A DNA stretch of 64,000 nucleotides from Hahellaceae bacterium (GTDB taxonomy: Bacteria > Pseudomonadota > Gammaproteobacteria > Pseudomonadales > Oleiphilaceae). The notes under the pieces are model-generated. The model saw nothing but the letters and a program-made list of their open reading frames with translations, was not told where the DNA came from and did no database searches. The DNA is taken from NCBI GenBank assembly GCA_016744695.1, contig JADGDV010000016.1, positions 5,202 through 69,201 on the forward strand, in the 5' to 3' direction. Made by a program: the position numbers and the translations under genes. Within the stretch, counting starts at the first letter, position 1. Each line of letters starts with the position of its first letter. Shown here piece by piece: positions 49,712 to 64,000 of the stretch.

Positions 49712-50440
49712 TTACCCAATCCCCGCTCCATTAAACTTCAACCAAGACTTATGTATTTCATAATCTGGCATCACTTTTTCAACATGTCGCCAGAAAGCCG
49801 GTGAATGGCTAAGCTCTTTAATGTGCGCAAGCTCATGTACGACAACATAATCTAAAACACTTAAGGGCAGCATGGCACACTTCCAGTGAAAATTAAGCGT
49901 CTTTTTCGCGGTACAAGAGCCCCAACGATGTTGAAGTTCCATGACTTTTACATCAGCAGGCTCAGTGCCCATTTTAGGCTGGTACAAATGAACGCGTTCT
50001 TTTAGTCTTTTTTGAAGCTTTACTTTATAAAATTGCTTGAAGTGCTCTGGGGCGTTTTGAATCGCATCTTTGCGTAAGCAGAATTGACCGTTTGAAAATT
50101 TAAGCGGTTCAGACTGGCGTATTCCATGCTCATGCTTTACATCAATTAATTGCAAACGATAACGCCGTCCAAAATAAAGAAAGCTTTCACCATTTACATA
50201 TTCACGATGAACCCGTGTACGGTTAAGATCTTCCCATTCGGCTAAATTACGGTAAATCCAACGACGTTTTTTCTCTATAATCTGTTCGATTTTATCGTGT
50301 TCAAACGGTGCAGGAGCCAAAACCGATACACTACCATCACGCTCAATATAAATACTGGTGGTTTTTCGTTCGCTCTTTTTTAAGCGATACGCTATGTCTT
50401 TGTACTTATGCTGGTGTTGATGCTGATGCTGATGCATCAT
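49712..50440 (-). CDS. M48/DUF45 (YgjP-like) metallopeptidase of the RM locus
   Basis: 242 residues. HELAHIKELSH carries the HExxH zinc motif near the C-terminus, in the arrangement of SprT/YgjP-like peptidases. Such genes commonly follow hsdR in type I RM loci. The ATG overlaps the hsdR stop. The N-terminus is MMHQHQHQHQHK, encoded by a hexamer repeat. Confidence 0.87.
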   Translation of the reverse strand: MMHQHQHQHQHKYKDIAYRLKKSERKTTSIYIERDGSVSVLAPAPFEHDKIEQIIEKKRRWIYRNLAEWEDLNRTRVHREYVNGESFLYFGRRYRLQLIDVKHEHGIRQSEPLKFSNGQFCLRKDAIQNAPEHFKQFYKVKLQKRLKERVHLYQPKMGTEPADVKVMELQHRWGSCTAKKTLNFHWKCAMLPLSVLDYVVVHELAHIKELSHSPAFWRHVEKVMPDYEIHKSWLKFNGAGIG

Positions 50441-53400
50441 AAGGCCGCTTCACGGCGCTTGGCTAAATCCATCACTTCTGTAGTGAGCAGCGCTTTATGG
50501 GTGATAAGGGCTTTGACCTTACTTAGAATAAATATTTTATTGAGTTTACCTTCCAAGGTTGTTACCTGAGCGGGTCTATCCCAAAAATTTAAGGTATCAA
50601 TAGTATCAGCCAGCGTATCCATAATCTCATCTACTACGGAGGCTATGGCCGTCTGATCAAGTGTGGAACACTCACTATAACACCCAGCCTCACCCTCAAA
50701 TGCAATTGAGATAATCAAATCGGCAAACGGGTCGCCACTACTCGCATCATCACCACGGCCCTCATCAATTTCGTCACGCAAACCTTCGAGTTCGAGCAGC
50801 ATTTGATCCCAGTTTTCATTGTACTTTTTAAGCACCTCTTCCAGCTTGTCGCTAAAGCGCTTGTACATTATAGGATCATCGCCTTCGTTTATTTTGCAGT
50901 GCTTACGAATGGCGTGTTCCATTTCACTGGCAGCAGCCCGTGAGTCTTTTTGTTTATCTAGCTCAATAATGAATTTATCACTAAACAATTCAACAGGGGG
51001 TACTTTAGGGTCAATACCTAAACTAATGAGGTGTTCGTTCACCAGTTTACGCACCTTCTCACCTGCGCCCCCCATATTGATCGAGTCATCCTTGTAACGT
51101 TCTTTGGCTTTGGCCTGAATATGAGTGAACTGATACATCGGAATTTTAAACGGCTCAGCCAGCTTATTGGGCAAGATAATATCCATGCTTTGCATAAACT
51201 TCTTTAGATACACGTTAAAACTATCGCGGGTTTTAATGTCTTCTAATACCTGAATAGCCGCTTCAGTGACTTCATAACGCTGAGCGTCGGTTTTCAGTGT
51301 TTGCTTAACTAGTTTTTCTATCTGCCTCACGCCAGGCTGTTTAGCTGAGAGGCTGGTAAACAATTGAACCAGTTGGTTATAACGGCTTTCTAATACCGGC
51401 ATTTCAGATTCAACCGATTTAAATGTCTCTAAAATATCTTGCTGATCTTTACCCGAATACAACGACAAGGCTTCTTTCAGATTTTCGGTCAGGCCAATGT
51501 AATCGACTACATAACCCACGGTTTTACCGTCATACGTTCGGTTAACACGGGCAATGGTTTGCAGTAGGTTATGCTCTTTTAGTTTTTTATCAATGTACAT
51601 TACCTGCTCAATAGGTGCATCAAAACCCGTTAGCAGCATGTCACACACAATTAAAAAGGCGATACCCGTTTCGGGTCTATCTGTATCAAATTCTTTCTTA
51701 AAATTGTCTACGGCCTCTTTTTCACGGCTTTCATTACGCGCCGCTACAAACGCGGCTTTTTCATTAGTGCCATCCGATGAAATTATCACCATGGCATCAA
51801 TAAACTCAACTTGCTTTATCAGCTCATGGTCTTGCTGTGCGCTTGGTTTCGCTAACTCATCTTTCACCCACTGCTTAAGGGCTTTACGAATATAGGTTTG
51901 ATAATGCAAGGCCGCCTGTTTAGACGAACACACCACTTGCGCCTTATAGCCACTAGGCAACACTTTTTGCACATAATGCTTAACGAGATCATTGGCGATT
52001 TCTTCAATGCGGTCTTCGGCCTCTAAAATATCACCGGTTGCACCATAGCGTTGACGAATAGCAGCGATCTCTTCATCAGTGCGATCTTTAAACAGGTTTT
52101 CAAACTTAGTATCAAAACCGTGTTTATCATAAATGGCCGTTTCAGCGGTTTTACCTTCATACAAAATTTGCAGGGTTGCGCCGTCGTCTACAGCATCTTG
52201 CAACTTGTATTCGTCAATATACGGCTCATCGGGGTTGTTACCAAATCGTTTCCAGGTTGGGTCGTCGTGATGGTCTGCAATTAAGGGCGTACCAGTAAAG
52301 GCTAAACGGGTGGCATTAGGAAAGGCATCAAACAGGTTGTCTGACAAACTCGCTTTATCTTGACCTGTACGCTGGGTACGGTGCGCCTCATCAATCATGA
52401 TGAGTACTTTTTGCGAATTATTCACCACGCCAAAGCTTTCAAATAAGGCCACTACCTTGTCATTAATTCTATCTACAGTGCCATCATTACCATAAGAGAT
52501 TGGCACTTCAGCGACCTTGCGGTATTGACCCGGTTCTAATGCATTGTGGATGTAGCTCGGGGTATTGCTATCGTCTGCTTCACGGAACTTATGGATCATC
52601 ACCATATTTAAGGTAGAAGAATCATCTTTAAGTTTGTCTTTTACTTGGTCACTGCTGGTAATGCGATAAACCTTCTCGCCCGTTAATGCCGCCGTTTCAC
52701 CTAATTGTTTATCGAGGTCTTTACGGTCATTCACCATTAAGATTTTATAATCTTTTAAATCGTCTTGGCTGCGCATTTTTCTCACCAAAAATACCATGGT
52801 GAGTGACTTACCACTACCTTGGGTGTGCCACACCACACCGGAGCGTTCCATACTGGTATTGCCTCTGCGAATACGGCGGATGATTTTATTGACGGCGCGG
52901 TATTGTTGATAACGGGCAACAATTTTAATCCGCTGCTTGCCTGCATCCATAAACAAAGAAAAGTTCTGGGTGATGTCTAACAGCTTACGAGGGTGCAACA
53001 TGCCTTGCACGAGGGTTTCTTGTGCTCGGTGCTTGCCCGTTGTTGGGTCAAGGTATTCAGTAGCGTCTGGATAGATGGTTTTCCAGTTAAAATAATATTC
53101 TTCGCTAGAGGTAATAGTGCCAAATTTGGCATCATCCCCATAGGTGGCCACCATTAACTGGTTGGTATAAAACAGTTTTGGTTCGCCTTCTTTTAACTGC
53201 GAGCCTTCTGGCTCCCGTAAATCGGCATAACGACGTAACTGCTCAACCGCTTGGTGCAGTGGGTCTGATGTAAAGCTGTTCACATCTTTGCATTCAATCA
53301 CCACCAAAGGCAGACCATTTACCAGTAATACAATGTCGGGAATAATGCATTCTTTAACCCCACCCGGTGTATCAAGGCGGTATTGGTTAATGGCGACAAA

Positions 53401-53781
53401 GCTATTGGCTTGCCAGTGATCAAAGTCGATGATTTTCACTACCGGGTTTTGCTCACCTGTTACGGTATTTTCATCCACCTGCCATTTATTTAAACGCTCA
53501 ATAAACTGCTGGTTACTTTCTAATAAACTGCGCACACCAAAGTTAGTGAAGTCTTCGTATAAACCTTCGAGCTGTTCAGGGCTTAGCCATGGCTTACCTT
53601 CATACACGTTAATGGCATTAACTGACTTAATGAATTCGCTTTTAATCACTACTTCGCGGAAATTTTCACGCAGGCTTTTAGTGGGGTCAGTGGGAATGCC
53701 AAAAGGTTGCTCGATAACCGTCCAGTCCATACTGGCCAGTTGATTGAGCAGCGGCTTTTCTACAAATTGGTATTCAGACAT
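50437..53781 (-). CDS. hsdR: Type I restriction enzyme, R (motor/nuclease) subunit
   Basis: 1114 residues. An N-terminal nuclease domain has IPDIVLLVNGLPLVVIECKD (PD-ExK). Two RecA-like motor lobes follow with Walker A TQGSGKS and DEAH in LIMIDEAHRTQ, then DMLLTGFDAP and the ARVNRTYDGK motif. The C-terminal part is helical. With HsdM and HsdS it translocates and cleaves unmethylated DNA. It is separated from hsdS by about 6.5 kb of other genes. Confidence 0.95.
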   Translation of the reverse strand: MSEYQFVEKPLLNQLASMDWTVIEQPFGIPTDPTKSLRENFREVVIKSEFIKSVNAINVYEGKPWLSPEQLEGLYEDFTNFGVRSLLESNQQFIERLNKWQVDENTVTGEQNPVVKIIDFDHWQANSFVAINQYRLDTPGGVKECIIPDIVLLVNGLPLVVIECKDVNSFTSDPLHQAVEQLRRYADLREPEGSQLKEGEPKLFYTNQLMVATYGDDAKFGTITSSEEYYFNWKTIYPDATEYLDPTTGKHRAQETLVQGMLHPRKLLDITQNFSLFMDAGKQRIKIVARYQQYRAVNKIIRRIRRGNTSMERSGVVWHTQGSGKSLTMVFLVRKMRSQDDLKDYKILMVNDRKDLDKQLGETAALTGEKVYRITSSDQVKDKLKDDSSTLNMVMIHKFREADDSNTPSYIHNALEPGQYRKVAEVPISYGNDGTVDRINDKVVALFESFGVVNNSQKVLIMIDEAHRTQRTGQDKASLSDNLFDAFPNATRLAFTGTPLIADHHDDPTWKRFGNNPDEPYIDEYKLQDAVDDGATLQILYEGKTAETAIYDKHGFDTKFENLFKDRTDEEIAAIRQRYGATGDILEAEDRIEEIANDLVKHYVQKVLPSGYKAQVVCSSKQAALHYQTYIRKALKQWVKDELAKPSAQQDHELIKQVEFIDAMVIISSDGTNEKAAFVAARNESREKEAVDNFKKEFDTDRPETGIAFLIVCDMLLTGFDAPIEQVMYIDKKLKEHNLLQTIARVNRTYDGKTVGYVVDYIGLTENLKEALSLYSGKDQQDILETFKSVESEMPVLESRYNQLVQLFTSLSAKQPGVRQIEKLVKQTLKTDAQRYEVTEAAIQVLEDIKTRDSFNVYLKKFMQSMDIILPNKLAEPFKIPMYQFTHIQAKAKERYKDDSINMGGAGEKVRKLVNEHLISLGIDPKVPPVELFSDKFIIELDKQKDSRAAASEMEHAIRKHCKINEGDDPIMYKRFSDKLEEVLKKYNENWDQMLLELEGLRDEIDEGRGDDASSGDPFADLIISIAFEGEAGCYSECSTLDQTAIASVVDEIMDTLADTIDTLNFWDRPAQVTTLEGKLNKIFILSKVKALITHKALLTTEVMDLAKRREAAL

Positions 53782-53839
53782 GGTTACAGCCCATTGTGCT
53801 CGTCCATTAAAACGTACATTTATATATCCTTTGTGCTAT

Positions 53840-54970
53840 CTACTTTGCGGCTTTCAGCAAGGAGTAAAAGGGCAGGTTAATGTAGTAATTAGTGCGCCCG
53901 ACCTTCTCTTTCTGTAAAAAGCCTTTATCGACTAATTGCTCCAAATATTTTGTAGCCGTAATTCGGCTCACATCCAGGTCGCTCATAACAAAATCAATTT
54001 TGGTGTAAGGGTGACTGAATAAATTATTCAATAACTCCTGACGGTAAATTTTTGGGAGCTGCTCGCGTATTTGATGTTTATATTGTTGCATCAATATCTT
54101 GATTTTCTGAATCAAAGCAATTGTCATTTGAGATGTTTGAATAATGCCTTCCAGCATATATAACAGCCATGGCTCCCATTCACCGCTATCTCTTACCTGC
54201 TGTAAATGCGTGTAATAGTCTGATTTGTTAGAGATGATAAATCGACTTAAATAAAGTACCGGCAAATCAAGCAAGCCTTTCGCAACAAGATACAAAATAT
54301 TCAAGATGCGACCAGTACGCCCATTACCATCATAAAAGGGGTGAATACTTTCGAACTGATGATGGATGATCGCCATTTTTACCAAAGGGTCAGCATCACA
54401 CAGCTCATCATTATTAATGTAATCAACTAGGTTGGCCATCAAACGCTCAATGTCTGCTGCATTTTGAGGTGGCGTATAAACGACCTCCCCTGTTCGAGCA
54501 TTTTTTAGATCAGTACCTGGTAGCTTACGCAATCCGGCATTATTATTTTCAAGGTACTGCTGTATGGTAATAATGTCATGCAAACGAATTACCGTTTGCT
54601 GCCTTACTGTTTGAAAGCCTTGCCTTAGTGCAAATGAATAATTTTGTACTTCTTTAGTAGCAGGGTTCGTTAGCGCCTCGGCAAATATGCTAGCTTTGTA
54701 GATTTCATCATGAGTGGTCACGATGTTTTCGATTTCTGAACTATCCTTTGCTTCTTGAAGGGTCAGTGTATTGATCAGAACAGCCTCATTGGGTATCGTC
54801 GCTGCGACCCCCTTAAGCTCTGCAAAGTAACGGTGTGCTTCTGCTGTCTTTTTAAGCACAGCGCGGGTTTCAAACGTCTCAATATTACTTAATGGTAGTG
54901 GAGCAAGTTCAGTCATCGAAATAGACATCCAGTTTGAATTGTTTCTATAGGCTTTACACACATCACGCAT
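53840..54970 (-). CDS. Fic-domain protein (AMPylator-like) with inhibitory helix
   Basis: 376 residues; starts at 54928 or 54916 are also possible. The Fic motif is HPFYDGNGRTGR (210-221). An N-terminal (S/T)xxxE(G/N) inhibitory motif, SSEIEN (77-82), marks a self-inhibited class II Fic protein. A winged-helix segment at the C-terminus may bind DNA. It may modify a target by AMP transfer. It lies in the defence island upstream of hsdR. Confidence 0.88.
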   Translation of the reverse strand: MRDVCKAYRNNSNWMSISMTELAPLPLSNIETFETRAVLKKTAEAHRYFAELKGVAATIPNEAVLINTLTLQEAKDSSEIENIVTTHDEIYKASIFAEALTNPATKEVQNYSFALRQGFQTVRQQTVIRLHDIITIQQYLENNNAGLRKLPGTDLKNARTGEVVYTPPQNAADIERLMANLVDYINNDELCDADPLVKMAIIHHQFESIHPFYDGNGRTGRILNILYLVAKGLLDLPVLYLSRFIISNKSDYYTHLQQVRDSGEWEPWLLYMLEGIIQTSQMTIALIQKIKILMQQYKHQIREQLPKIYRQELLNNLFSHPYTKIDFVMSDLDVSRITATKYLEQLVDKGFLQKEKVGRTNYYINLPFYSLLKAAK

Positions 54971-55106
54971 AAATAATTAGATTTTCTATACATATTACAC
55001 AGCTTATATATAGTAATCTCTGAAATCTATACATATCTTTCTTCATGCGTATGCCATCGATATCTTTTGTAGAACTAATATCACCTTAATACATAAATAT
55101 TCATTA

Positions 55107-55131
55107 CCCAGCCAAATGAACGTATTAGAAA
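55107..55131. repeat. Direct repeat copy 1
   Basis: CAGCCAAATGAACGTATTAG and flanking bases match two further copies at 55776 and 55858. This copy lies just past the toxin gene. Confidence 0.7.
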
Positions 55132-55142
55132 TTGAGTGGTAA

Positions 55143-55160
55143 CCAAGTAACATGACTTGG
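55143..55160. terminator. Hairpin downstream of the toxin remnant
   Basis: CCAAGT-AACATG-ACTTGG is a perfect 6-bp stem just past the end of the toxin frame. It has no T-run, so its strength as a terminator is uncertain. Confidence 0.4.
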
Positions 55161-55167
55161 CTATCAT

Positions 55168-55389
55168 TCATATATCATCGAAACTTAATAGCTGACGACA
55201 ATTTCTAACCGTTAGAATATTGACCTCTGATAACACGCTATAAATAATGCAGTAGTTACCGAAAATATTTTCAGCTTTATCAAAAATATCGTTAACCCAC
55301 TTTGTGGCGGCAATATCATTATCAAGAGCTATATACTCAGCAATGTCTCTAACTTTTTCTAATGCTAGAGGTGACCAAATAACGTCCAC
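55168..55389 (-). pseudogene. ParE/RelE-family toxin with internal deletion
   Basis: 73 residues against about 95 in the family. The N-terminal helices are normal (IWSPLALEKVRDIAEYIA), and the C-terminal strands are recognisable (YCIIYSVLSEVNILTVRNCRQLL). The middle, which usually holds the 'FP..GR.vpE....iRE' segment, is missing: ENIF runs straight into GNY. The GTG start overlaps the antitoxin TAG by one base. The toxin is probably inactive or weakened. Confidence 0.75.
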
Positions 55390-55667
55390 TAGCTTAACCG
55401 CTTGAGTATTTGAGTGCGTGCATCTTCATTTGAAACACCTAAACCAGACGCAAACTCTGACTCTGCTTTCTGGATTTCTTCCAGAATTTCTATTTTTTCT
55501 TGCATTGCTTCATATTCAGAAACATCAAGAACAACCGCGACACCTTTACCCCTTTGGGTAATCACTAGTGGTCGGTGTGTTTCATTAATTTGACGAATAA
55601 AAGAAGTAACGCCAGCTCTAAATTCAGAGAGTGGCTGAATATCTTGATCTAATCTAATACGGCTCAT
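55389..55667 (-). CDS. Phd/YefM-family antitoxin
   Basis: 92 residues from the ATG at 55667 (another ATG lies two codons earlier). IQPLSEFRAGVTSFIRQINETHRPLVITQRGKGVAVVLDVSEYE is the classic Phd/YefM DNA-binding domain, followed by a helical toxin-binding tail. An 18-bp palindrome lies upstream. The antitoxin is intact although its toxin is deleted. Confidence 0.9.
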   Translation of the reverse strand: MSRIRLDQDIQPLSEFRAGVTSFIRQINETHRPLVITQRGKGVAVVLDVSEYEAMQEKIEILEEIQKAESEFASGLGVSNEDARTQILKRLS

Positions 55668-55692
55668 AACCACACCTTTATGTACGTTATTT

Positions 55693-55710
55693 TGTACTAA
55701 TTATAGTACA
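55693..55710. promoter_or_regulatory. Antitoxin operator palindrome
   Basis: TGTACTA-ATTA-TAGTACA has perfect 7-bp arms, 26 bp before the antitoxin start. Phd/YefM proteins bind such palindromes to repress their operon. Confidence 0.75.
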
Positions 55711-55775
55711 GAACAACGCAACCAACAACGCTGGAAAATTATAACAAGTCAGAGGCTTTCTTTAACGACGGAATA

Positions 55776-55802
55776 TACCCCAGTCAAATGAGCGTATTAG
55801 AG
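55776..55802. repeat. Direct repeat copy 2
   Basis: CCCAGTCAAATGAGCGTATT and following AGAGG resemble copies 1 and 3. It lies upstream of the antitoxin, so copies 1 and 2 bracket the toxin-antitoxin pair. Confidence 0.7.
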
Positions 55803-55857
55803 GAAACCCCCATAAACACTGGGTTGTTGTATTTTTTTGCCTGTTTTACTACTGCTT

Positions 55858-55880
55858 AGTCAAATGAACGCATTAGAGAA
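55858..55880. repeat. Direct repeat copy 3
   Basis: AGTCAAATGAACGCATTAGA lies two bases past the stop of the decayed AlbA_2 gene. Bases between copies 2 and 3 show no gene. Confidence 0.7.
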
Positions 55881-55881
55881 A

Positions 55882-57015
55882 TCAGGCCCAAAAAGGAACA
55901 TAACGCCAATGTTTTCTATTGGCTTTAGTGTCATAAATACGAATCAAACCTGCATCTGTTGATTGCTTTATTACCCTGCTGGCCATTGCACTACTGCTGC
56001 TATCCATATCAAACCGCTCTCTTCACATACATTAATGCGGCGCATAAAAGATGCCAGCGCTTCATTGCGACTTTGCGGCGGTGAATCTAAAAAACGCTGT
56101 GTATCAACCAGTGGGGTACCTGGGTTAGTTATTTCCATACGCGTAGCCAGCTCAGGATACATAGGCACTTCTTTACGAAAAGCCTTTCCTATCTCTTCAT
56201 TTGACGGAAGCAGCGTAGTAATTTGTTCGATTAGACCATTAAAAGGCGACCGCATAGCCTCTGCTATCTTCTAGCTCGCGTATAGCTTCTACACGGCTAT
56301 TATTCTTATATAAGATGGTACGCACGGCTTTACGCGTTAAGTGGCGAAAGTCTTGTAACTTTTTAGCAAATAAAATCGCCCCTAAATTGGCAATACTCCA
56401 TAAGCCATTGTCATGCTTAGTAATAAACCGTTCAGCTTCGAGCGCAGCTAAAATACCATCACGGCCTTCTGGCAATGCTTGATCGGTTAAATCAAAATAA
56501 GCAGGGTAGTCTAATAATTTTAGTACTTTTTCAACACTTAAATTTTCGGCTGCGGCCTGAAACTCAAACGGTGTTTTATCAAATATACGCCACAAAGCGC
56601 GTTCTTTTTCTTTAAACTCTCCATCAAATTGCACTGGGGTATGCGTCGCTGCTTGAATTTCAAGAATTACCACAGAGTGCTTATCGGCCACTATAAATTC
56701 ATAAAAGCGAAAATCAATTTTAGGGGCCATTTTTTGGAGCAACCAGCTCTCTAATTCTTGCTGCTTGTGCCTAGCGCTAGCCGGTTTAAATGTTGTACCA
56801 ATAACCTTGTGATCTTCATCTTCTACGCCCCAAACCATATAAGCAGATTGCTTACCGACTAACGCAGCAGAATTGGAAAGTGCTGAAATATACTCGCCCA
56901 TCATTTATGGGGTGGCATTGTTATGCTTAAACTCTACCCATTCGGTTTCGTGTGGTAGACGGCATAGTTCGCGTAATAGTGAGAGTAGTTGCTCTAGGGT
57001 TTGGTCAATGGGCAC
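55882..57015 (-). pseudogene. Decayed AlbA_2/Schlafen-type ATP-binding regulator gene
   Basis: Four lesions can be read. The gene begins at GTG 57015 behind GAGGTG and encodes ETEWVEFKHNNATP, then meets an in-frame TAA (next codons MMGEYISALSNSAAL) where the family has Glu. Near 56241 one extra base in a TTTT run (minus strand) shifts the frame between RGYAVAF and NGLIEQI. Around YPELA-TRMEITNPG about 30 family residues are missing. After RRINVCEE about 100 residues are lost and the end continues in another frame, MASRVIKQSTDAGL ... YVPFWA, to TGA at 55882. Intact members have about 480 residues and occur in defence islands. Confidence 0.85.
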
Positions 57016-57040
57016 GATGCACCTCAGCTTTTCTTTTCAT

Positions 57041-57463
57041 TTATTTCTTCTCCTTGCTCATATAGCTACTCCATTCTGAGTTTTCCTTTGAAATAATGGA
57101 TTCGATATCATGAACAAACCTATCAAATTTATTTTCATCCTGATATGGAGTAGAGGATGTTAAAAATAAATGTTTAAGATGTAAAAGTGATTCACAAGTC
57201 GTTCTAAAATTAAGCCACCTTTCTTGATATTTATTAAGCGCTAAAAAAGCCGTTGCACACGTCACCATTAACCCCAGTATCGCTGTAATCCATTCAGAAA
57301 AACAAATTTCACTAGAGAATCCCGCAATAATTGGAATTAATGCACCTGATATTATTTGTAGTCCCGTCAATCGCTTAAATATACTCTGACTTTTTCCTGA
57401 CTGCGTATCATAGTAAGATATCTGATCATCTACCCGTGATTTAATATACTCATCTTCATTCAT
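57041..57463 (-). CDS. DUF4231 (SLATT-like) two-TM membrane protein
   Basis: 140 residues. An N-terminal RVDDQISYYDTQSGKSQ segment is typical of DUF4231. Two membrane helices follow (LQIISGALIPIIAGF and WITAILGLMVTCATAFLAL), then a cytosolic helical tail (YQERWLNFRTTCESL). SLATT/DUF4231 proteins are thought to be pore-forming or membrane-sensing effectors that go with nucleotide-signal defence systems. It starts one base after the stop of the TIR gene and ends the operon. I infer a role as effector or partner of the TIR protein. Confidence 0.8.
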   Translation of the reverse strand: MNEDEYIKSRVDDQISYYDTQSGKSQSIFKRLTGLQIISGALIPIIAGFSSEICFSEWITAILGLMVTCATAFLALNKYQERWLNFRTTCESLLHLKHLFLTSSTPYQDENKFDRFVHDIESIISKENSEWSSYMSKEKK

Positions 57464-57964
57464 TTATCTCTCCTTGGCAGCATTATCGACGGCAGTCATA
57501 ATGGCATCATGCTTCCAAGATACGATTGAGCTAGTATTGCTTGTTATGTGCCTGGGTATATTTGATGGTGGAGTATCACCTTTGTGTACAGCAATAACCC
57601 CTTTCCCCATTTTTATGCTTTGCTCTACTTCCCACTTAACCCAGTCACTTTTCATACTTTTTTCAGAAAGGTAGATTATGGTTACTGATGTGTTTTCAAT
57701 TTTCTCTCTTATTTGCCTCTTTATGTATTCGGCATTTTCACTATTAAAAGCTTCCTTAACTGAGTGATCAGAGAATTCTAGGTCTGAACTGTCATTTTTA
57801 GACTGCCCTCTTAGTAAATTTACTTCGTTCATATCTTCATGTGAAAAACTGATGAAAACATTTCGTTTAATTGTTTCACCCGCCTCTTTTAACCTTTCTT
57901 TTGCTTTTTGCTCTAAGGTTTTTTTATCTGAAGGTGAAAAACCGTATCCGCCACCACCACCCAT
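57464..57964 (-). CDS. TIR-domain protein with poly-glycine N-terminus
   Basis: 166 residues from the ATG at 57964, chosen for its AAGGAG site. The protein begins MGGGGGYGFSPSDKK, and a helical lead-in follows to residue 32. The TIR-like domain (ThsB/DUF1863 style) runs from RNVFISFSHED (35-45) to IVSWKHDAIM; VTIIYLSEKSMKSDWVKWE carries the likely NADase Glu (E112). TIR domains in phage defence cleave NAD+ or make cyclic ADP-ribose signals. It begins 10 bp after the QueC-like gene and immediately precedes the DUF4231 gene. The bare glycine run, exposed after Met removal, is unusual and may be a modification site for the QueC-like enzyme (inference). Confidence 0.85.
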   Translation of the reverse strand: MGGGGGYGFSPSDKKTLEQKAKERLKEAGETIKRNVFISFSHEDMNEVNLLRGQSKNDSSDLEFSDHSVKEAFNSENAEYIKRQIREKIENTSVTIIYLSEKSMKSDWVKWEVEQSIKMGKGVIAVHKGDTPPSNIPRHITSNTSSIVSWKHDAIMTAVDNAAKER

Positions 57965-57974
57965 AACATGCTCC

Positions 57975-58556
57975 TTAAAATTGAAATTCTTTACAAGAAA
58001 TACAGTGACCACAAGGTGCCTCTCCACCAGCATGACATGAATAAGTACCCTCAATACCTCGGGACTTTGCCATTTCTACAACATCATTTTTACTAAAACC
58101 TCGTAAAGGTGCGACAATCTCGATTTTACGCCCCAATGCTTTAGATATCGTATATTCCGCTGATATTAAAAAATCATCTGTTTGATCAGGAAAAAGAGCT
58201 GTGCTTTCATCCAATAGGCCAAGTGATACAGCAGTGCAACTATTTTGAAAGGCAAATGCTGAGGCTGTTAATAACAGCAGCATGTTACGACCCGGTAGAA
58301 ATGCATCATCGACAATGTGTTTTCGTGAATCTGTAATACCAGAGGTAATAGTTTGGCCATAATTTGGTATATCTATCCTTACAGGAGAGGACAAACCAAA
58401 CCTATCACAATGCTGCCTAGCACCATTAAACTCTTTTTCAACATTGAGTTGACCGTAATTAACAAAAAGTGGTATTTGATTTCTTCCGATTTCTTTGGCT
58501 AAAACAGACATTAAGCTTGAATCAAGTCCGCCAGATAACAGCGTAACAATGCTCAT
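57975..58556 (-). CDS. QueC-like enzyme (Cap9-type) of a defence operon
   Basis: 193 residues. SGGLDSS (8-14) is the PP-loop ATP-binding motif, and PGRNMLLLLTASAFA the QueC signature. Zinc ligands are C174, C182, C185 and C188. True QueC makes 7-cyano-7-deazaguanine and is about 230 residues long; this one stops four residues after the last Cys-Lys turn. There are no queD, queE or queF genes nearby, and it lies between OGG-like and TIR genes with a 4-bp overlap. QueC paralogues in type IV CBASS (Cap9) are reported, as I recall, to attach a 7-deazaguanine to a protein N-terminal Gly. A similar role is likely here. Confidence 0.85.
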   Translation of the reverse strand: MSIVTLLSGGLDSSLMSVLAKEIGRNQIPLFVNYGQLNVEKEFNGARQHCDRFGLSSPVRIDIPNYGQTITSGITDSRKHIVDDAFLPGRNMLLLLTASAFAFQNSCTAVSLGLLDESTALFPDQTDDFLISAEYTISKALGRKIEIVAPLRGFSKNDVVEMAKSRGIEGTYSCHAGGEAPCGHCISCKEFQF

Positions 58557-59257
58557 ACTGCCACCTTATAGTTTAAATTTCTCATAATGAACCACATGGC
58601 TTGATCGACAACAGATACAGAGTGCTCAAAAATTTTTATTATATTAATGAAAGCATCTTCAATATCTTCATACTTATCAATTTTACCAAGCTGGTATGTA
58701 GTGATATTTTGTTTATTTGAAAGTTTAATGTAATGTACAATATGCCTATCCAAAATAGCCAAGCTATCTGTATAGCCAACATTCTTTAAAAAATGGCTGG
58801 CTTGTTTTGGGCCAATTCCTGGGCAAGCCGCGACAATCTCTCTGCGTAATTCTCTAGCGGTTAAGCCATTTTCAAATAACTTTTTAAATGAACCATAACA
58901 ATTAATCACATTAGAGTAAGCTTCAGCAATAAACTTAGCCTTAGCATTTGGATAACGATAAGATTTATAACTTTTTTCCTCAAACCGATCACTAACAGCA
59001 CCGCTTAATAAAACAGCCAATTCATTTACCAACTCAATTTGCGTTACCGCTCTTCTTTTATTTAAAATTTTATTGGAAGTAATTAAATCAGAATATGCCA
59101 CAGCAATCTCATACCTAACACCACTACCCAAAATGCAAATAAGCATTTCATTTAAAATTTCTTCTTCGCTCATGTCAAACCAATTAATGGGTTTAACGAT
59201 ATCTTCAACATCCAAACAAAGACCTGCTATAGCACGATTAATTTGCTGTAACTGCAT
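58553..59257 (-). CDS. OGG-like HhH-GPD DNA glycosylase family protein
   Basis: 234 residues. The helix-hairpin-helix and GPD elements read CPGIGPKQASHFLKNVGY and AILDRHIVHYI. The catalytic Lys (K151) and Asp (D170) of OGG-type glycosylases are kept. The pattern is closest to the OGG2/AGOG group. OGG-like proteins are ancillary in type IV CBASS. The stop overlaps the QueC-like start by 4 bp, and its start lies 20 bp inside the TGT-like gene. Here it may act on deazaguanine-containing bases or nucleosides rather than in DNA repair. Confidence 0.82.
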   Translation of the reverse strand: MQLQQINRAIAGLCLDVEDIVKPINWFDMSEEEILNEMLICILGSGVRYEIAVAYSDLITSNKILNKRRAVTQIELVNELAVLLSGAVSDRFEEKSYKSYRYPNAKAKFIAEAYSNVINCYGSFKKLFENGLTARELRREIVAACPGIGPKQASHFLKNVGYTDSLAILDRHIVHYIKLSNKQNITTYQLGKIDKYEDIEDAFINIIKIFEHSVSVVDQAMWFIMRNLNYKVAV

Positions 59258-60239
59258 AACTATCTCCTTGACTTGCCATTGATTTAATTAAGTTGTTAAT
59301 AATATCTCTTTGCGGGCCTTTGATGTATTTAGAAATCATTGATTCTTTTTGGCCCGTAGCTATTGACACTCTAAGTTGCTCCATCCACTTATCATAAAAA
59401 TCTAGGTTGTGCAGGTAGCACTTTGTAAGTAAGCCCATATCCTTTTCATTTCCCCATCGACCTTGATGCGCGTATAGATCAAAATGTAAAGTGTGATGCA
59501 ATGTAGCCGTTTCGTAATCAACAACTGTCTGACACCAGTCTAGACCATCAAAAGAATCAGCCCCCACAAATGAATAAACCATCATAGATAATGGATTACC
59601 TGTTCCTAAAATATGCAAATTTTGATAAGTCTCAAGTTTGTTTAAAGCATCCCTTATTCGAGATATATTAATAGCCACCTCGATCATACCTGACCCTAGC
59701 TCTCGCTCTGGAATTGCTAGTAATTTCGGTCTACTATTTTTACTTATATCAACACAATAACGAATATAATCCTCTATCGATTTACAATGTATTATTGGCG
59801 ATATAATGGGTTTATTAATTTGTTTAACTATTTTACTTATATCACCAGAAATATGACTTGGCTGTACTGTTTTATTTTTAAAAGTAACATATTCATCAAA
59901 ACAAAATGCATGAGAGACCCTGTTATCAGCCAATGTCTTTAAATATTTTCTCCTGTTCCATCTTTTTGATTTTGACCAAACCACTTCGTAAATACCAGAA
60001 TCAAATAAAAGTATTTGATTCTGGTCGCAAGCAGTCATTAGTGCCTTTTTTAGATCACTATTATTTTTATTCTTATGAATATCAAAGCAAGACACCAAAA
60101 ATTGAGGAAAATTAAAGGATACTAACAGTTCAATATGATCAATTACTCCCCATGTATTTTTTGCCACTGATGAAACTGATGGATAGAAAACGGGTGTTGG
60201 CAAACCGCCTATCGTTTTATTCATTACTTTATTTTCCAT
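59238..60239 (-). CDS. TGT-like protein (Cap10/DpdA-related)
   Basis: 333 residues; ATG 60224 is an alternative start. LLFDSGIYEVVW and LHILGTGNPLSMMVYSFVGADSFDGLDW are the TIM-barrel strands of the tRNA-guanine transglycosylase superfamily, the latter with the GADSFD nucleophile region (D228, D231). The CxCxxC zinc motif of true TGTs is missing. It begins directly after the hsdS stop (TAAATG), so the new operon is read through from the RM genes. It likely handles a 7-deazaguanine base. Confidence 0.8.
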   Translation of the reverse strand: MENKVMNKTIGGLPTPVFYPSVSSVAKNTWGVIDHIELLVSFNFPQFLVSCFDIHKNKNNSDLKKALMTACDQNQILLFDSGIYEVVWSKSKRWNRRKYLKTLADNRVSHAFCFDEYVTFKNKTVQPSHISGDISKIVKQINKPIISPIIHCKSIEDYIRYCVDISKNSRPKLLAIPERELGSGMIEVAINISRIRDALNKLETYQNLHILGTGNPLSMMVYSFVGADSFDGLDWCQTVVDYETATLHHTLHFDLYAHQGRWGNEKDMGLLTKCYLHNLDFYDKWMEQLRVSIATGQKESMISKYIKGPQRDIINNLIKSMASQGDSYAVTAN

Positions 60240-61535
60240 TTAGTTAACCTTTACCTTCCCTGTTAAAAGGTCTTGCATAAGACCTTTTTTAATTCCCCTA
60301 TACTCTTTAACTTCATACTGAAATAGCTTTAGTTTTTTATCTATCAATTCGACTCCTTCATAGATAAATTCTTGCTCTTTCACCGGTGGAAATGCAACTA
60401 AGAGCTTACCTAATATATTAGAATTAAGATTTGCCATTGTCGTACCTACAGCCAGGCCATCGACTTGTGACTGTATAAACCTTGTCCCGTATAACGTAGA
60501 AAACCATCCTCCATGTATTATTAACGAGCTAACTCTAAGTAGTAAACACCCAGTACCGCATATAAATCCGATATTATTTAACTCTTTAGCAATATATGTG
60601 GATCGGGTGAGGTCACCTCGCCTTGAAAAAACAACATCATTAGCTTTCACTTTATGCCTAGATAGTGAATTAGCTTTACCCTCTGTAATTTGAGCTATTT
60701 TCTCAAAAGATATTACTCCTTCAATAATATCTTGGGGCATAATGACAGGTACGCCTGTCTCTACATATTCATACGAATGTAGCTGGCTACCAAATGGTCC
60801 TGTTTGCACAAAGCCATCACCCTCTATTTTTTCTTTAAGCGAGCAAACCTCCCACTCCTTCGGCACCCAGCCCAACTCGGTTTGTTTGTAGAGTTCGGGA
60901 GCATCTTCAACACTGGGGCGGAGTTTTCCGCCTTTTGAGTTTGGTGTATCACCCGTGGTCATATCAATGCCACGGGTGAATAGGTCGGCCATCATGCCTT
61001 GTTTGATGGCAGTGTATTTATCGATGAGGGTTTGTGTTTTTTCGATTAGCTTATCGACGGTGCTTAGGATTTTGGCGATTTTTTGTTGTTGCGACAGGCT
61101 AGGTATAAATACAATTTCATTCTCAACAATTGTAGTATTTAGGTTTACTTGTGTTCCTGGCTGGCCACGCTTTTCAAAATCTTTTTCATGAAACTGCAAA
61201 AGATAATAAAGGTATTCGGTGTTAGCATTCTGAATATCATAAATTTGTACAAATCCATCGTGTATGCAAGCAGGCATATCTACGATCATTGGCTTACCAA
61301 CAGTCGCACATATTGACATAATCAAATCACCAGCATCAACTCTCAATGATCGTAATTGACCAAGAGGCGATAAATATTGCTGAGTCTGCCTTAAGTATTT
61401 TTTATTTCTTTGTGTTACGTCTGAGATTCTTACCCAGCCAACGTCCCCACCAAAGAAGTCAGGATTGTTAATAGGTCGTGGTGATGCTCCTCTTCTGACT
61501 TTCGAAAAGGAGCCAATAGACTGAAACTCACTCAT
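60240..61535 (-). CDS. hsdS: Type I restriction enzyme, S (specificity) subunit
   Basis: 431 residues from the ATG at 61535, behind AGGAG; it overlaps the hsdM stop. Two target-recognition domains (about 1-150 and 215-390) are separated by the conserved helices KIAKILSTVDKLIEKTQ, and the C-terminal helix ends GIKKGLMQDLLTGKVKV. The second TRD is AT-rich like the genes behind it. It sets the DNA sequence recognised. Confidence 0.93.
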   Translation of the reverse strand: MSEFQSIGSFSKVRRGASPRPINNPDFFGGDVGWVRISDVTQRNKKYLRQTQQYLSPLGQLRSLRVDAGDLIMSICATVGKPMIVDMPACIHDGFVQIYDIQNANTEYLYYLLQFHEKDFEKRGQPGTQVNLNTTIVENEIVFIPSLSQQQKIAKILSTVDKLIEKTQTLIDKYTAIKQGMMADLFTRGIDMTTGDTPNSKGGKLRPSVEDAPELYKQTELGWVPKEWEVCSLKEKIEGDGFVQTGPFGSQLHSYEYVETGVPVIMPQDIIEGVISFEKIAQITEGKANSLSRHKVKANDVVFSRRGDLTRSTYIAKELNNIGFICGTGCLLLRVSSLIIHGGWFSTLYGTRFIQSQVDGLAVGTTMANLNSNILGKLLVAFPPVKEQEFIYEGVELIDKKLKLFQYEVKEYRGIKKGLMQDLLTGKVKVN

Positions 61536-64000
61536 AACCCAACTCCTGCAAGAACCCATCTAGCAATACAGCCTGCTGATCTCGCTCGGCCAGAATATCC
61601 TTCACCGTTACCGCGTATTTACCATGTAGATTTTCCACAGCTTTCACTAAATGCGTAACAAGCTGACGAAGATATTGATCAAAACTATCTTGCATTAATC
61701 GCTTAAAGCGCTTCTCAATAAGCTCACGTGCTTCTTCTGGTGTAATCTTCTCACGGGCTTTTTGAACCAAATCATCCTTTTTCTTTTCTGCTTCTTTAAT
61801 GCCTGCTTTTAGGTCTTTAAGTTCTTTTTCTAGGGCGATGTGCTGGGCCAGTTTTTGAACGATGGTGTTATTGGCTTTATTCAGTGCTTCGATTTGTGCT
61901 TCTAATTCTTTTGCTCTGGCTTCGTCTTCTTTTTTAGCGAACTTCATCTCTTTCTTAAGATCACGCAGTTGGCCGTTATTTTCTTTTTGTGCGGCTTTAA
62001 AACCTTTCACTTGTGCCTTGGGCAGCACGCCGTTTTCATTGGTCGCTCCCGACATCCTGTCTCCCGCGACACTAGAACATCCCTGTTCGTCGTCTTCGTC
62101 GCTATCGCTGTCTTCATCTTCTTCTGATACTTCATTAGCCGCTGCAAAAAGTGCTTCTAATTCATTAATACGTGCTTGATCTTTTTTCAACTCCGCCAGC
62201 ACTTCTGGAAACTGTGATTGTAAAATTTCTTCATCAGGTATCAGCTCTGCATTCCAGCCTGAATTCGCGATGGATTTTAGTTCGGCTTCTGAGTTTTTAA
62301 AGTTGTTAGCCATCGCCCCACGGATTTGATAAAGGCTTAACAAGTTTTGTGGTAACAGGGCTTTTACAATGCTGTTTAATGATTCGCGGCGTAAGGCGAA
62401 TACCCCTTTAGAGCCTGTTAGATCATCCCCTAGCTTATGAAATGCTGGGGCGAAGGTTTGCTCCCACCAATTGTCTAGCTGGTCGCTTAGGGCTTGGTGT
62501 TTTTCGATTACTGATGGATACGTTTCTAAGGTGGTTTTAATAGCCGCTTTATCGCTGATGATTTCATTAAACGACTGATAACCTGCCTTGCTGGTATGAT
62601 CTACTGTTTCTTTTGTATTAAAGAGAGCATTCTGCAAGCCTGTGTAGTTATCCCAATAGCTTTGCAGTGCGTTTACTTCTGCCGTGGGTATGCCTCCGTT
62701 TAGGTGGGCTTTTACGTCATGGGGTTCTGGTGCGGGGCTGTTGTCTACATAGCGGCGTATGTTTAGGTTATAGCCTTCGGCTGCTAGTTCGCTAATGGGT
62801 ACGGCGCGGGCGTATTTTTCTAGGTGTTTTGATTTTGAAGGTGCTTCGACTTCGCTCAGCATGACTGTGTGGTTTAGGGACTGATACACATGGCTGATTT
62901 TTTCAATGTCTTCTGGGCGTAGTTGGTTTTGGTTTTTGCCTTCTTTGTATTCACGGTCGGCATTGATGAAGACGACGTGTTGTCGTTGTGCGGCATTGGC
63001 TTTGTTGATGACCAATACACAGGCCGGTATGCCGGTGCCGTAGAACAGGCCTTGGGGTAAACCGATCACCGCTTCTAATATGCCTTGCTCGATGAGTTTT
63101 TGGCGGCATTGCTTTTCTTCACCACCACGGAATAACACACCGTGAGGCATAACCACGGCCATTTTGCCGTTTTGTTTCAGTGACGCGACCATGTGTTGCA
63201 CAAACATAAAGTCGGCTTTTTTGCCGCCTTCGGGTAGCCAGGTATGAAAGCGCCCTGTGTGTTCCATACCCAGTTTTTGATAGTTTTGAGAAAAGGGAGG
63301 GTTAGCGATTACGCGGTCGAAGCTGCGAATTTCACCATTGGCGGTTACATGCTGCGGCTTGGCTAAGGTGTCTTCATTTTGAATATTGGCCCCACCTGCG
63401 CCGTGCAAAATCATGTTCATTTTACAGATAGACCATGTAGTACCGCTGTCTTCTTGGCCGAACAGGTCTATTTTGCTGACATCACCGCCCGTTTCTTCTA
63501 CATAATTTTTACTTTGAATAAGCATACCGCCTGAACCACAGGTAGGATCATAAATTTCCATACCTTCATTCGGTTGCAGTAACTCCACTAATAATCGCAC
63601 CACTTCACTTGGTGTGTAGAATTCACCGCCTTTTTTACCCGCGCTGTCGGCAAAGAATTTGATAAGGTATTCGTAGGCGGCTCCGAGCAGGTCAGGGAAT
63701 TCAAAATCGTCATTGGTGAGGGGGATGCTATTAAAGTGTTGTATGAACTGTACTAGCACATTGTCTTCCATGGGCTTTTTGCCCACTTTTTTATTGAAGT
63801 TAATGTGCTTGAGTACGTCTTCTAGACCTTTGGTGGTATTGGCGTCTTCTAATGCGGCGAGGGCTTTGTTTAGTTCGGTGCCTACATTGCTTTTGATGTG
63901 TTTAATGGTATGCCATGCAGCGGCATCGGGTACGAAGTAAGCATATTGGCTTGGGTCATCCAGTAGCATTTGGATGGTGTCGTCGTCATGGCCTTCGTTT
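61528..64000 (-). CDS. hsdM: Type I restriction enzyme, M (methylase) subunit (5' end outside window)
   Basis: More than 813 residues visible. The SAM motif DPTCGSGGML and catalytic NPPF in VIANPPFSQ mark an N6-adenine methylase. FGEFYTPSEVVRLL-like GGEFYTPSEVV precedes them. The C-terminal third is a long coiled coil (KKEMKFAKKEDEARAKELEAQ). In front of it is a highly acidic run (SEEDEDSDSDEDDEQ) and a short insert encoded by a palindromic element. The frame continues past the right edge. Confidence 0.94.
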   Translation of the reverse strand, partial: NEGHDDDTIQMLLDDPSQYAYFVPDAAAWHTIKHIKSNVGTELNKALAALEDANTTKGLEDVLKHINFNKKVGKKPMEDNVLVQFIQHFNSIPLTNDDFEFPDLLGAAYEYLIKFFADSAGKKGGEFYTPSEVVRLLVELLQPNEGMEIYDPTCGSGGMLIQSKNYVEETGGDVSKIDLFGQEDSGTTWSICKMNMILHGAGGANIQNEDTLAKPQHVTANGEIRSFDRVIANPPFSQNYQKLGMEHTGRFHTWLPEGGKKADFMFVQHMVASLKQNGKMAVVMPHGVLFRGGEEKQCRQKLIEQGILEAVIGLPQGLFYGTGIPACVLVINKANAAQRQHVVFINADREYKEGKNQNQLRPEDIEKISHVYQSLNHTVMLSEVEAPSKSKHLEKYARAVPISELAAEGYNLNIRRYVDNSPAPEPHDVKAHLNGGIPTAEVNALQSYWDNYTGLQNALFNTKETVDHTSKAGYQSFNEIISDKAAIKTTLETYPSVIEKHQALSDQLDNWWEQTFAPAFHKLGDDLTGSKGVFALRRESLNSIVKALLPQNLLSLYQIRGAMANNFKNSEAELKSIANSGWNAELIPDEEILQSQFPEVLAELKKDQARINELEALFAAANEVSEEDEDSDSDEDDEQGCSSVAGDRMSGATNENGVLPKAQVKGFKAAQKENNGQLRDLKKEMKFAKKEDEARAKELEAQIEALNKANNTIVQKLAQHIALEKELKDLKAGIKEAEKKKDDLVQKAREKITPEEARELIEKRFKRLMQDSFDQYLRQLVTHLVKAVENLHGKYAVTVKDILAERDQQAVLLDGFLQELGYE
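62042..62088. repeat. Palindromic element inside hsdM
   Basis: GTCGC (62042-62046) pairs with GCGAC (62066-62070) around the hairpin GACATCCTGTC (62051-62061); a second hairpin GAACATCCCTGTTC lies at 62075-62088. The element is in frame and encodes GCSSVAGDRMSGAT in HsdM. It resembles dispersed palindromic elements rather than protein-coding sequence. Confidence 0.6.

Follow-up and report, generated by a model that had tools for sequence, protein, structure and literature searches.

A conserved TGT-OGG-QueC-TIR operon as a likely anti-phage system with a glycine-tailed TIR protein as the predicted target of 7-deazaguanine tagging

Here we describe a five-gene operon from a Hahellaceae bacterium, located in a 64,000-nucleotide stretch of DNA (the window; GenBank assembly GCA_016744695.1, contig JADGDV010000016.1, positions 5,202 to 69,201), in which genes for TGT-, OGG- and QueC-family proteins are followed by genes for a TIR protein and a SLATT/DUF4231 membrane protein. 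The conserved gene set, which recurs in several phyla, probably constitutes an anti-phage system not described so far, in which a base tag would control the TIR protein. More specifically, we consider it probable that the operon defends by protein deazaguanylation: the QueC-family enzyme would tag Gly2 of the TIR protein, the TGT-family protein would bind the tag, infection would free the TIR protein and the signal it makes would open the SLATT protein. The evidence lies chiefly in the glycine-led N-terminal tail of the TIR protein, which is similar to that of an unrelated enzyme, the CD-NTase of type IV cyclic oligonucleotide-based anti-phage signalling systems (CBASS).

The precedent for such tagging comes from type IV CBASS, for which the accessible text of PMC11996544 describes the conjugation of 7-deazaguanine to the N-terminus of the CD-NTase by Cap9, the binding of the modified end by Cap10, and a requirement of both for defence. 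The acceptor is Gly2, exposed by removal of the initiator methionine, and the substitution G2D blocks modification (PMC13279940, accessible part). Within the literature that we found, the CD-NTase of type IV CBASS is the only substrate for which protein deazaguanylation has been shown, QatB being a proposed second (accessible parts of PMC11996544 and PMC13279940).

Results

Layout of the operon

The five genes occupy positions 57041-60239 of the window and are translated from the minus strand in the order TGT, OGG, QueC, TIR, SLATT/DUF4231. The features, from the upstream end, are:

60240..61559, minus strand: hsdS, type I restriction specificity gene, directly upstream of the operon (Methylase_S, E 7e-27)
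59238..60239, minus strand: TGT-family protein, 333 amino acids, Cap10-like, predicted reader of the deazaguanine-tagged N-terminus (PADLOC TGT, E 2.4e-24)
58553..59257, minus strand: OGG-family HhH-GPD protein, 234 amino acids (Pfam Ogg-HhH, E 3e-24)
57975..58556, minus strand: QueC-family ATP-dependent enzyme, 193 amino acids, predicted writer of the 7-deazaguanine tag on the TIR protein (PF06508, E 7e-33)
57971..57976, minus strand: AAGGAG, which overlaps the QueC stop and probably serves as ribosome-binding site for the TIR gene (from the sequence)
57464..57964, minus strand: TIR protein, 166 amino acids, predicted substrate and signal-making enzyme (ThsB_TIR, E 3e-23)
57881..57964, minus strand: codons of the 28-residue glycine-led N-terminal tail of the TIR protein, predicted tag acceptor
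57041..57463, minus strand: SLATT/DUF4231 two-transmembrane protein, 140 amino acids, predicted membrane effector (NCBIfam SLATT_1, E 2e-35; Pfam DUF4231, E 4e-22)

The TGT and OGG frames overlap by 20 bp and those of OGG and QueC by 4 bp, 10 bp separate QueC from TIR, and there is no gap between TIR and SLATT or between the hsdS stop and the TGT start. The original prediction had proposed five minus-strand genes separated by at most 10 bp or overlapping, with hsdS upstream and an AlbA_2 pseudogene downstream. The coordinates agree with this layout, a Pfam scan recovers both flanking genes, and matches to Pfam, PADLOC and NCBIfam profiles bear out all five family assignments. The longest TIR reading frame opens at a TTG inside QueC; judged by the preceding AAGGAG, the true start is likely the ATG at 57964.

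The TIR protein carries a conserved glycine-led tail

The TIR protein begins with MGGGGGYGFSPSDKK, and its glycine-led start (MGGGGGYGFS) had gone unmentioned in the original prediction. We assembled 18 loci, of which 16 are the window itself or were found through TGT homology and two, L060 (an IMG/VR contig) and L091, were found through the TIR protein. In all 18, the TIR protein directly after QueC starts with MGG. Among the listed matches to TIR homologues (120 of 973 found), MGG stands at or near the annotated start in every case, directly at the start in 116 and behind a longer annotated start in 4.

This feature follows the presence of QueC in two control sets. In 30 ThsB_TIR (PF08937) loci, one per genome, drawn from the 80 matching genomes among 398 of the phylum, with neighbours judged within about 1.4 kb, MGG occurs in 5/5 TIR proteins beside QueC and in 0/25 of the others; 24 of these 25 are clean, the frame of L051 being broken so that a neighbouring open reading frame was read, and L048 and L049 look identical. 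Among 13 TIR matches in 297 Rhizobiaceae genomes, MGG is present on both proteins encoded directly after QueC and on none of the remaining 11; one of these (L102) is a second TIR protein in the operon neighbourhood of G428, a genome that occurs in both controls. Operon TIR proteins also keep the motif W-V-x-W-E, with an invariant Glu that we take to be the TIR catalytic residue. The conservation of the MGG tail makes the TIR protein the likely substrate.

The tail resembles that of type IV CBASS CD-NTases

For comparison, a Pseudanabaena plasmid (L067) provided a genuine type IV CBASS locus, in which a QueC-like gene, a TGT-like gene (PADLOC, E 6e-110), an MGG CD-NTase gene (over the cut-off of NCBIfam CBASS_cyclase_b) and a two-transmembrane effector gene stand in that order; its CD-NTase begins with MGGSGGGFFSNSDITKELREAE. 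The search for CD-NTase homologues found 2294, and in the 120 that were listed MGG stands near the start in 106, directly at it in 101. When the two sets of tails were made non-redundant at less than 70% identity (23 TIR tails of 120 and 61 CD-NTase tails of 106), they aligned over 28 columns with an hhalign probability of 97%.

The likeness extends beyond the glycine head. With the head removed, CD-NTase tails score a mean of 1.62 bits on the TIR model (shuffle mean -2.36, standard deviation 0.47) and TIR tails a mean of 3.49 bits on the CD-NTase model (shuffle mean -0.27, standard deviation 0.48), beating all 40 shuffles in both directions, although relatedness among the tails of a family means that these margins are not to be read as probabilities. 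In a pool of 71 distinct open MGG starts from 724 kb, a model of 42 of the 120 TIR tails, each less than 60% identical to that of the window but some of them near copies of tested operon TIR proteins, placed 19/19 TIR proteins first (22.7-56.0 bits), followed by the type IV CD-NTase (18.3 bits) and then by other starts at 6.6 bits or less. The reverse ranking, with the CD-NTase model, placed its own family first and TIR proteins in places 2-16. The TIR protein and the CD-NTase, which has an unrelated fold, have in common a similar tail of about 28 residues. Because this tail is shared with the CD-NTase and the operon encodes a Cap10-like reader, we infer that the same tagging reaction takes place on the TIR protein.

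The gene order is conserved in distant bacteria

The order TGT-OGG-QueC-TIR is identical in every locus where all four genes can be seen (17/17, the window included); the TGT of L091 falls outside the stretch read. In 18/18 loci the TIR start lies between -11 and +21 bp from the QueC stop. Of the conserved order TGT-OGG-QueC-TIR-DUF4231 envisaged originally, the first four genes hold, but the fifth is not fixed, SLATT/DUF4231 lying directly after TIR in 9/18 loci. The hosts comprise Gammaproteobacteria, Rhizobiaceae (on plasmids), Campylobacterota, Pelotomaculum and an Acidobacteriota bin.

A search of genome contigs by TGT homology returned 20 stretches that fit the pattern; seven were confirmed, all seven with TGT-OGG-QueC-TIR, from three gammaproteobacterial bins, Sulfurovum, Sulfurimonas, Pelotomaculum and an Acidobacteriota bin. 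On plasmids, the TGT matches 13 records and the TIR protein 14 at E 1e-15, all 13 being among the 14; the fourteenth, from Natronomonas, has a tailless TIR protein beside DUF4231. Ten of the 13 are Rhizobium records with nearly the same match, and four of the 13 were read. The PADLOC TGT model found six genomes among the 398 of the phylum, five of which, including that of the window, carry the operon; the sixth, G438 (L025), has a short TGT match without it. A class-wide TGT census yielded 2/369 genomes, namely that of the window and G100 (L014), whose partial match (E 0.001) contains two internal stops. Scans of viral contigs with the TGT, type IV CD-NTase and Cap10 confirmed no relative. Besides G438, G100 and nine of the 13 plasmid records, the 18-locus count leaves out L059, where the viral contig opens with an MGG TIR gene whose neighbours are out of view, L103, which is the same contig as L060, and L106. 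On this last, a viral contig, an operon-type QueC frame ends early (603-926) and is followed by genes of phage-like appearance on visual inspection, as though a mobile element had inserted there.

The original prediction had found no CD-NTase gene between hsdS and AlbA_2, and this stands: no type-IV-like CD-NTase occurs in the window, and a whole-genome search of the host for SMODS (PF18144) CD-NTases gave 0/1. The type IV CD-NTase profile, which matches its positive control in L067 at E 6e-158, finds none in the window or in the 17 sister loci (best E 0.94). We could thereby rule out that a CD-NTase has merely been lost in the genome of the window, as none of the type IV kind is found in the 17 sister loci either.

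Could the arrangement be a chance neighbourhood in a defence island, with the remnant of a type IV CBASS beside an unrelated TIR-SLATT pair? The operon does have type I restriction genes on one side and a broken Schlafen gene on the other, and TIR-SLATT pairs without QueC do exist (L027, L063-L066). A chance neighbourhood is nevertheless contradicted by the conserved gene order and by the tight QueC-TIR spacing, and no CD-NTase of the type IV kind is found in any of the 18 loci; we regard it as exceedingly improbable.

A putative writer, a putative reader and an OGG-family protein

Among PDB sequences the QueC-family enzyme of the window matches Cap9 best (9nto, E 6e-11), with canonical QueC close behind (5e-10), and the PADLOC QueC model matches it at E 4e-24. 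With 111 bits against a required 150, it does not reach the canonical-QueC threshold of NCBIfam, nor does the Cap9 of L067, and it has no NCBIfam QatC match at 1e-3. All 13 operon copies aligned (13/13) keep the SGG-x-DS ATP loop, YGQ, RN and four Cys. The host genome encodes QueE (7-carboxy-7-deazaguanine synthase, over the NCBIfam cut-off) beside a canonical QueC, together with a PTPS-family (QueD-like) gene.

The TGT-family protein of the window is under the Pfam cut-off (PF01702, E 3e-4) and is matched by the PADLOC TGT model. The sole match of its family profile among 177635 PDB sequences at E 0.01 is Cap10 (9ntn, E 8e-11), with which the operon TGT shares the motifs E-x-E-L/V-G and F-D-G-L-x-W. 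Set against the canonical TGT of the same genome, it retains DSG and F-D and is missing the C-x-C-x2-C stretch. The TGT frame is 460-487 amino acids long in 9/17 loci owing to an extra N-terminal part, which is a TIR domain in L010 (scanned) and in many database relatives.

The OGG-family protein matches an N-glycosylase/DNA lyase in the PDB (3fhg, E 5e-13) and no PADLOC model at E 0.1. Its G-P-K-Q and D-x-H motifs are invariant in 9/9 aligned operon copies, the Lys of the former and the Asp of the latter presumably being the two catalytic residues of Ogg enzymes. In one relative (P0045, 557 amino acids) TGT and OGG are naturally fused, which suggests that these two proteins act together.

Enzymes of the TGT, QueC and OGG families usually have nucleic acids or free bases as substrates. 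It is conceivable that the three proteins place a 7-deazaguanine on DNA or tRNA, in the manner of the 7-deazaguanine modification already known for DNA, that the TIR protein acts when this mark is missing or damaged and that the MGG tail serves for binding only. The retention of the OGG motifs in every aligned copy, and of the DSG and F-D positions of canonical TGT, would fit such a scheme. It sits poorly with the absence of C-x-C-x2-C and with a profile that finds only Cap10 among PDB sequences, and it leaves unexplained why a CD-NTase-like tail is present on TIR proteins encoded after QueC and missing from the control TIR proteins. We judge modification of DNA or tRNA to be improbable, and favor a role for the operon in tagging the TIR protein.

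The SLATT protein and other neighbours

SLATT/DUF4231 genes occur in 12/18 loci, directly after TIR in 9/18 (the window, L003, L004, L005, L009, L011, L012, L024 and L091) and elsewhere in the locus in 3/18 (L010, L028 and L060). SLATT is frequent but not part of the core. The SLATT protein of the window scores 88-92 bits against those of L063-L066 and 17-33 bits, where a match is found, against the tandem SLATT proteins of sister operons.

Two-gene SLATT-TIR pairs also stand alone on viral contigs (L063, 5579-6408; L064; L065; L066) and on a haloarchaeal Natronomonas plasmid (L027, 5510-6462). In the stretches read, these pairs show no QueC, TGT or OGG match, and their TIR proteins are tailless. 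They are possibly a small defence pair of their own.

Further neighbours of the operon include additional TIR genes and genes for MAP3K_TRAF_bd/TPR-S proteins. The latter adjoin it in distant bacteria (L006, 3332-4639; L021, 452-1828; L008, 6542-7873; L024, 10057-11358) and perhaps take the place of SLATT as a partner. On four Rhizobiaceae plasmids, a PfkB-family kinase gene directly precedes the long TGT gene (L010, 4315-5448; L011, 4333-5484; L012, 4339-5487; L028, 4267-5448).

Beside the operon, at 55971-56904, the Schlafen/AlbA_2 gene is broken into two overlapping frames, an AlbA_2 piece and a RecG-like C-terminal piece. Across 50437-63969, hsdR, which was identified by eye, and hsdMS lie apart, with the operon, this pseudogene and genes for a Phd-type antitoxin and a Fic protein between them. 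Type I restriction genes, again judged by eye, also adjoin the operon in L005 and L008.

Discussion

Judged by its gene content, the operon lies outside type IV CBASS, there being no CD-NTase, and outside Thoeris, there being no ThsA. With type IV CBASS it shares a QueC-family enzyme and a Cap10-like TGT beside a signal-making enzyme that carries MGG and a similar 28-residue tail, and a two-transmembrane SLATT-like protein is also found in L067, after the CD-NTase. The tailed enzyme is, however, a CD-NTase there and a TIR protein here, so that the N-terminal Gly acceptor tail of a type IV CBASS is present on a different protein; the gene order also differs, and the operon QueC forms a lineage of its own. 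In L067, the only type IV CBASS locus that we read, we found no OGG relative. With Thoeris the operon shares a TIR protein of the ThsB_TIR family, over the Pfam cut-off, that has the Glu of W-V-x-x-E. Here, in contrast, the TIR protein bears the MGG tail and is set among QueC, TGT and OGG; none of the five operon proteins matches the ThsA models of PADLOC at E 0.1, and the gene downstream of TIR is SLATT. The qatABCD system likewise sets a QueC-family enzyme next to a partner, QatB, whose N-terminal Gly motif (MGTS) is essential (PMC13279940, accessible part). The operon differs from it in that its five proteins belong to other Pfam families than the QatA ATPase, QatB and the QatD TatD nuclease and in that its QueC is partnered with a TIR protein; QatC also carries long extensions, and both of its base-site residues are Thr (PMC13279940). 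The stand-alone SLATT-TIR pairs have related TIR proteins and a similar SLATT but differ in having no match to QueC, TGT or OGG and no MGG tail.

Taken together, these comparisons lead us to propose that the operon likely works like type IV CBASS upstream and, more tentatively, like Thoeris downstream. Removal of Met1 would expose Gly2 of the TIR protein, to which the QueC-family enzyme would join 7-carboxy-7-deazaguanine, and the Cap10-like TGT would bind and hold the tagged TIR protein. Phage infection would then release the TIR protein to make a signal derived from nicotinamide adenine dinucleotide (NAD), and this signal, where a SLATT membrane protein is present, would open it as a pore. 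Control of the TIR protein is the likely use of the tag. Anti-phage activity of the operon is inferred from its defence-island setting, with type I restriction genes and a Schlafen pseudogene, and from homology. The original prediction saw here a new type of defence in which deazaguanine chemistry serves a TIR effector; the conserved order and the lack of a CD-NTase support that view, amended in one respect, namely that the TIR protein is likely the substrate of this chemistry and not just served by it.

Several observations weigh against this proposal or parts of it. Operon copies score 81-86 bits with the PADLOC QueC model, a range close to the 76-82 bits of QueC genes from eight other genomes, and in an unrooted tree of 21 QueC proteins (13 operon, two Cap9 and six canonical) the 13 operon copies form one group (98/97) that lies outside Cap9. 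Of the 120 listed CD-NTase homologues, the 14 without MGG comprise 12 that start MGS, MAG or MSG and two fragments; hence the MGG head is not strict even in type IV CBASS. Four of 19 TIR proteins score among unrelated starts in the reverse ranking. A TIR-domain tree of 14 operon rows (with the near copies L005, L028, L012 and L091 dropped) and 15 tailless rows unites the tailed TIR proteins in 47% of bootstrap trees, a value that speaks neither for nor against a single origin. SLATT is missing by two SLATT profiles in 6/18 loci (L006, L007, L008, L021, L022 and L023), some of them on short contigs, and the SLATT protein of the window is without an evident ligand-binding domain. Finally, the base-recognition site reads F-x-D-Q in 13/13 operon QueC proteins and Y-x-D-C in 8/8 others, Cap9 and canonical QueC included.

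An assignment of the operon enzyme as a Cap9 orthologue was considered and is not supported, given its separate tree group and a PADLOC score like that of other QueC genes.

The altered base-recognition site of the operon enzymes raises the possibility that QueC modifies the TIR tail with another group, as has been suggested for QatC. The uniformity of F-x-D-Q among the operon enzymes is in keeping with such a change of the attached group, and a precedent may be seen in QatC, which has Thr in place of both the Tyr and the Asp and whose product is unknown (PMC13279940, accessible part). F-x-D-Q does, however, keep the base-reading aromatic ring and the Asp, and QueE is present in the host. We think modification with another group unlikely, if deserving of consideration, and favor a 7-deazaguanine tag.

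The gene set appears to have escaped description. The main text of a 2026 survey of the QueC family (PMC13329287) contains none of the terms 'TIR', 'TGT', 'SLATT' or 'OGG'. According to the accessible part of that survey, its Cluster 4, which has PfkB neighbours, shows a Cys pattern unlike that of the operon QueC (PMC13329287). Our literature search returned no match that combines Cap9/Cap10 or a QueC/tRNA-ribosyltransferase defence with TIR; its scope excludes the full Science 2025 text on type IV CBASS, so an earlier mention is possible.

If the TIR protein is indeed the substrate, the operon would join tagging of the CBASS type to signalling of the Thoeris type and show an acceptor tail at work on unrelated folds. 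Its readout, whether loss of NAD or a cyclic ADP-ribose product, would be separate from oligonucleotide signalling, making the role of the tag testable. Further substrates could then be sought by a sequence rule, namely an MGG-tailed gene immediately after a QueC gene. It is, therefore, tempting to consider, and with some reserve we lean toward the view, that the operon represents a new immune class, neither CBASS nor Thoeris, in which QueC writes a nucleobase on Gly2 of a TIR protein and a Cap10-like TGT reads it. The tail of about 28 residues would then be portable across unrelated signalling enzymes, and 7-deazaguanine tagging may be a general switch of bacterial immunity.

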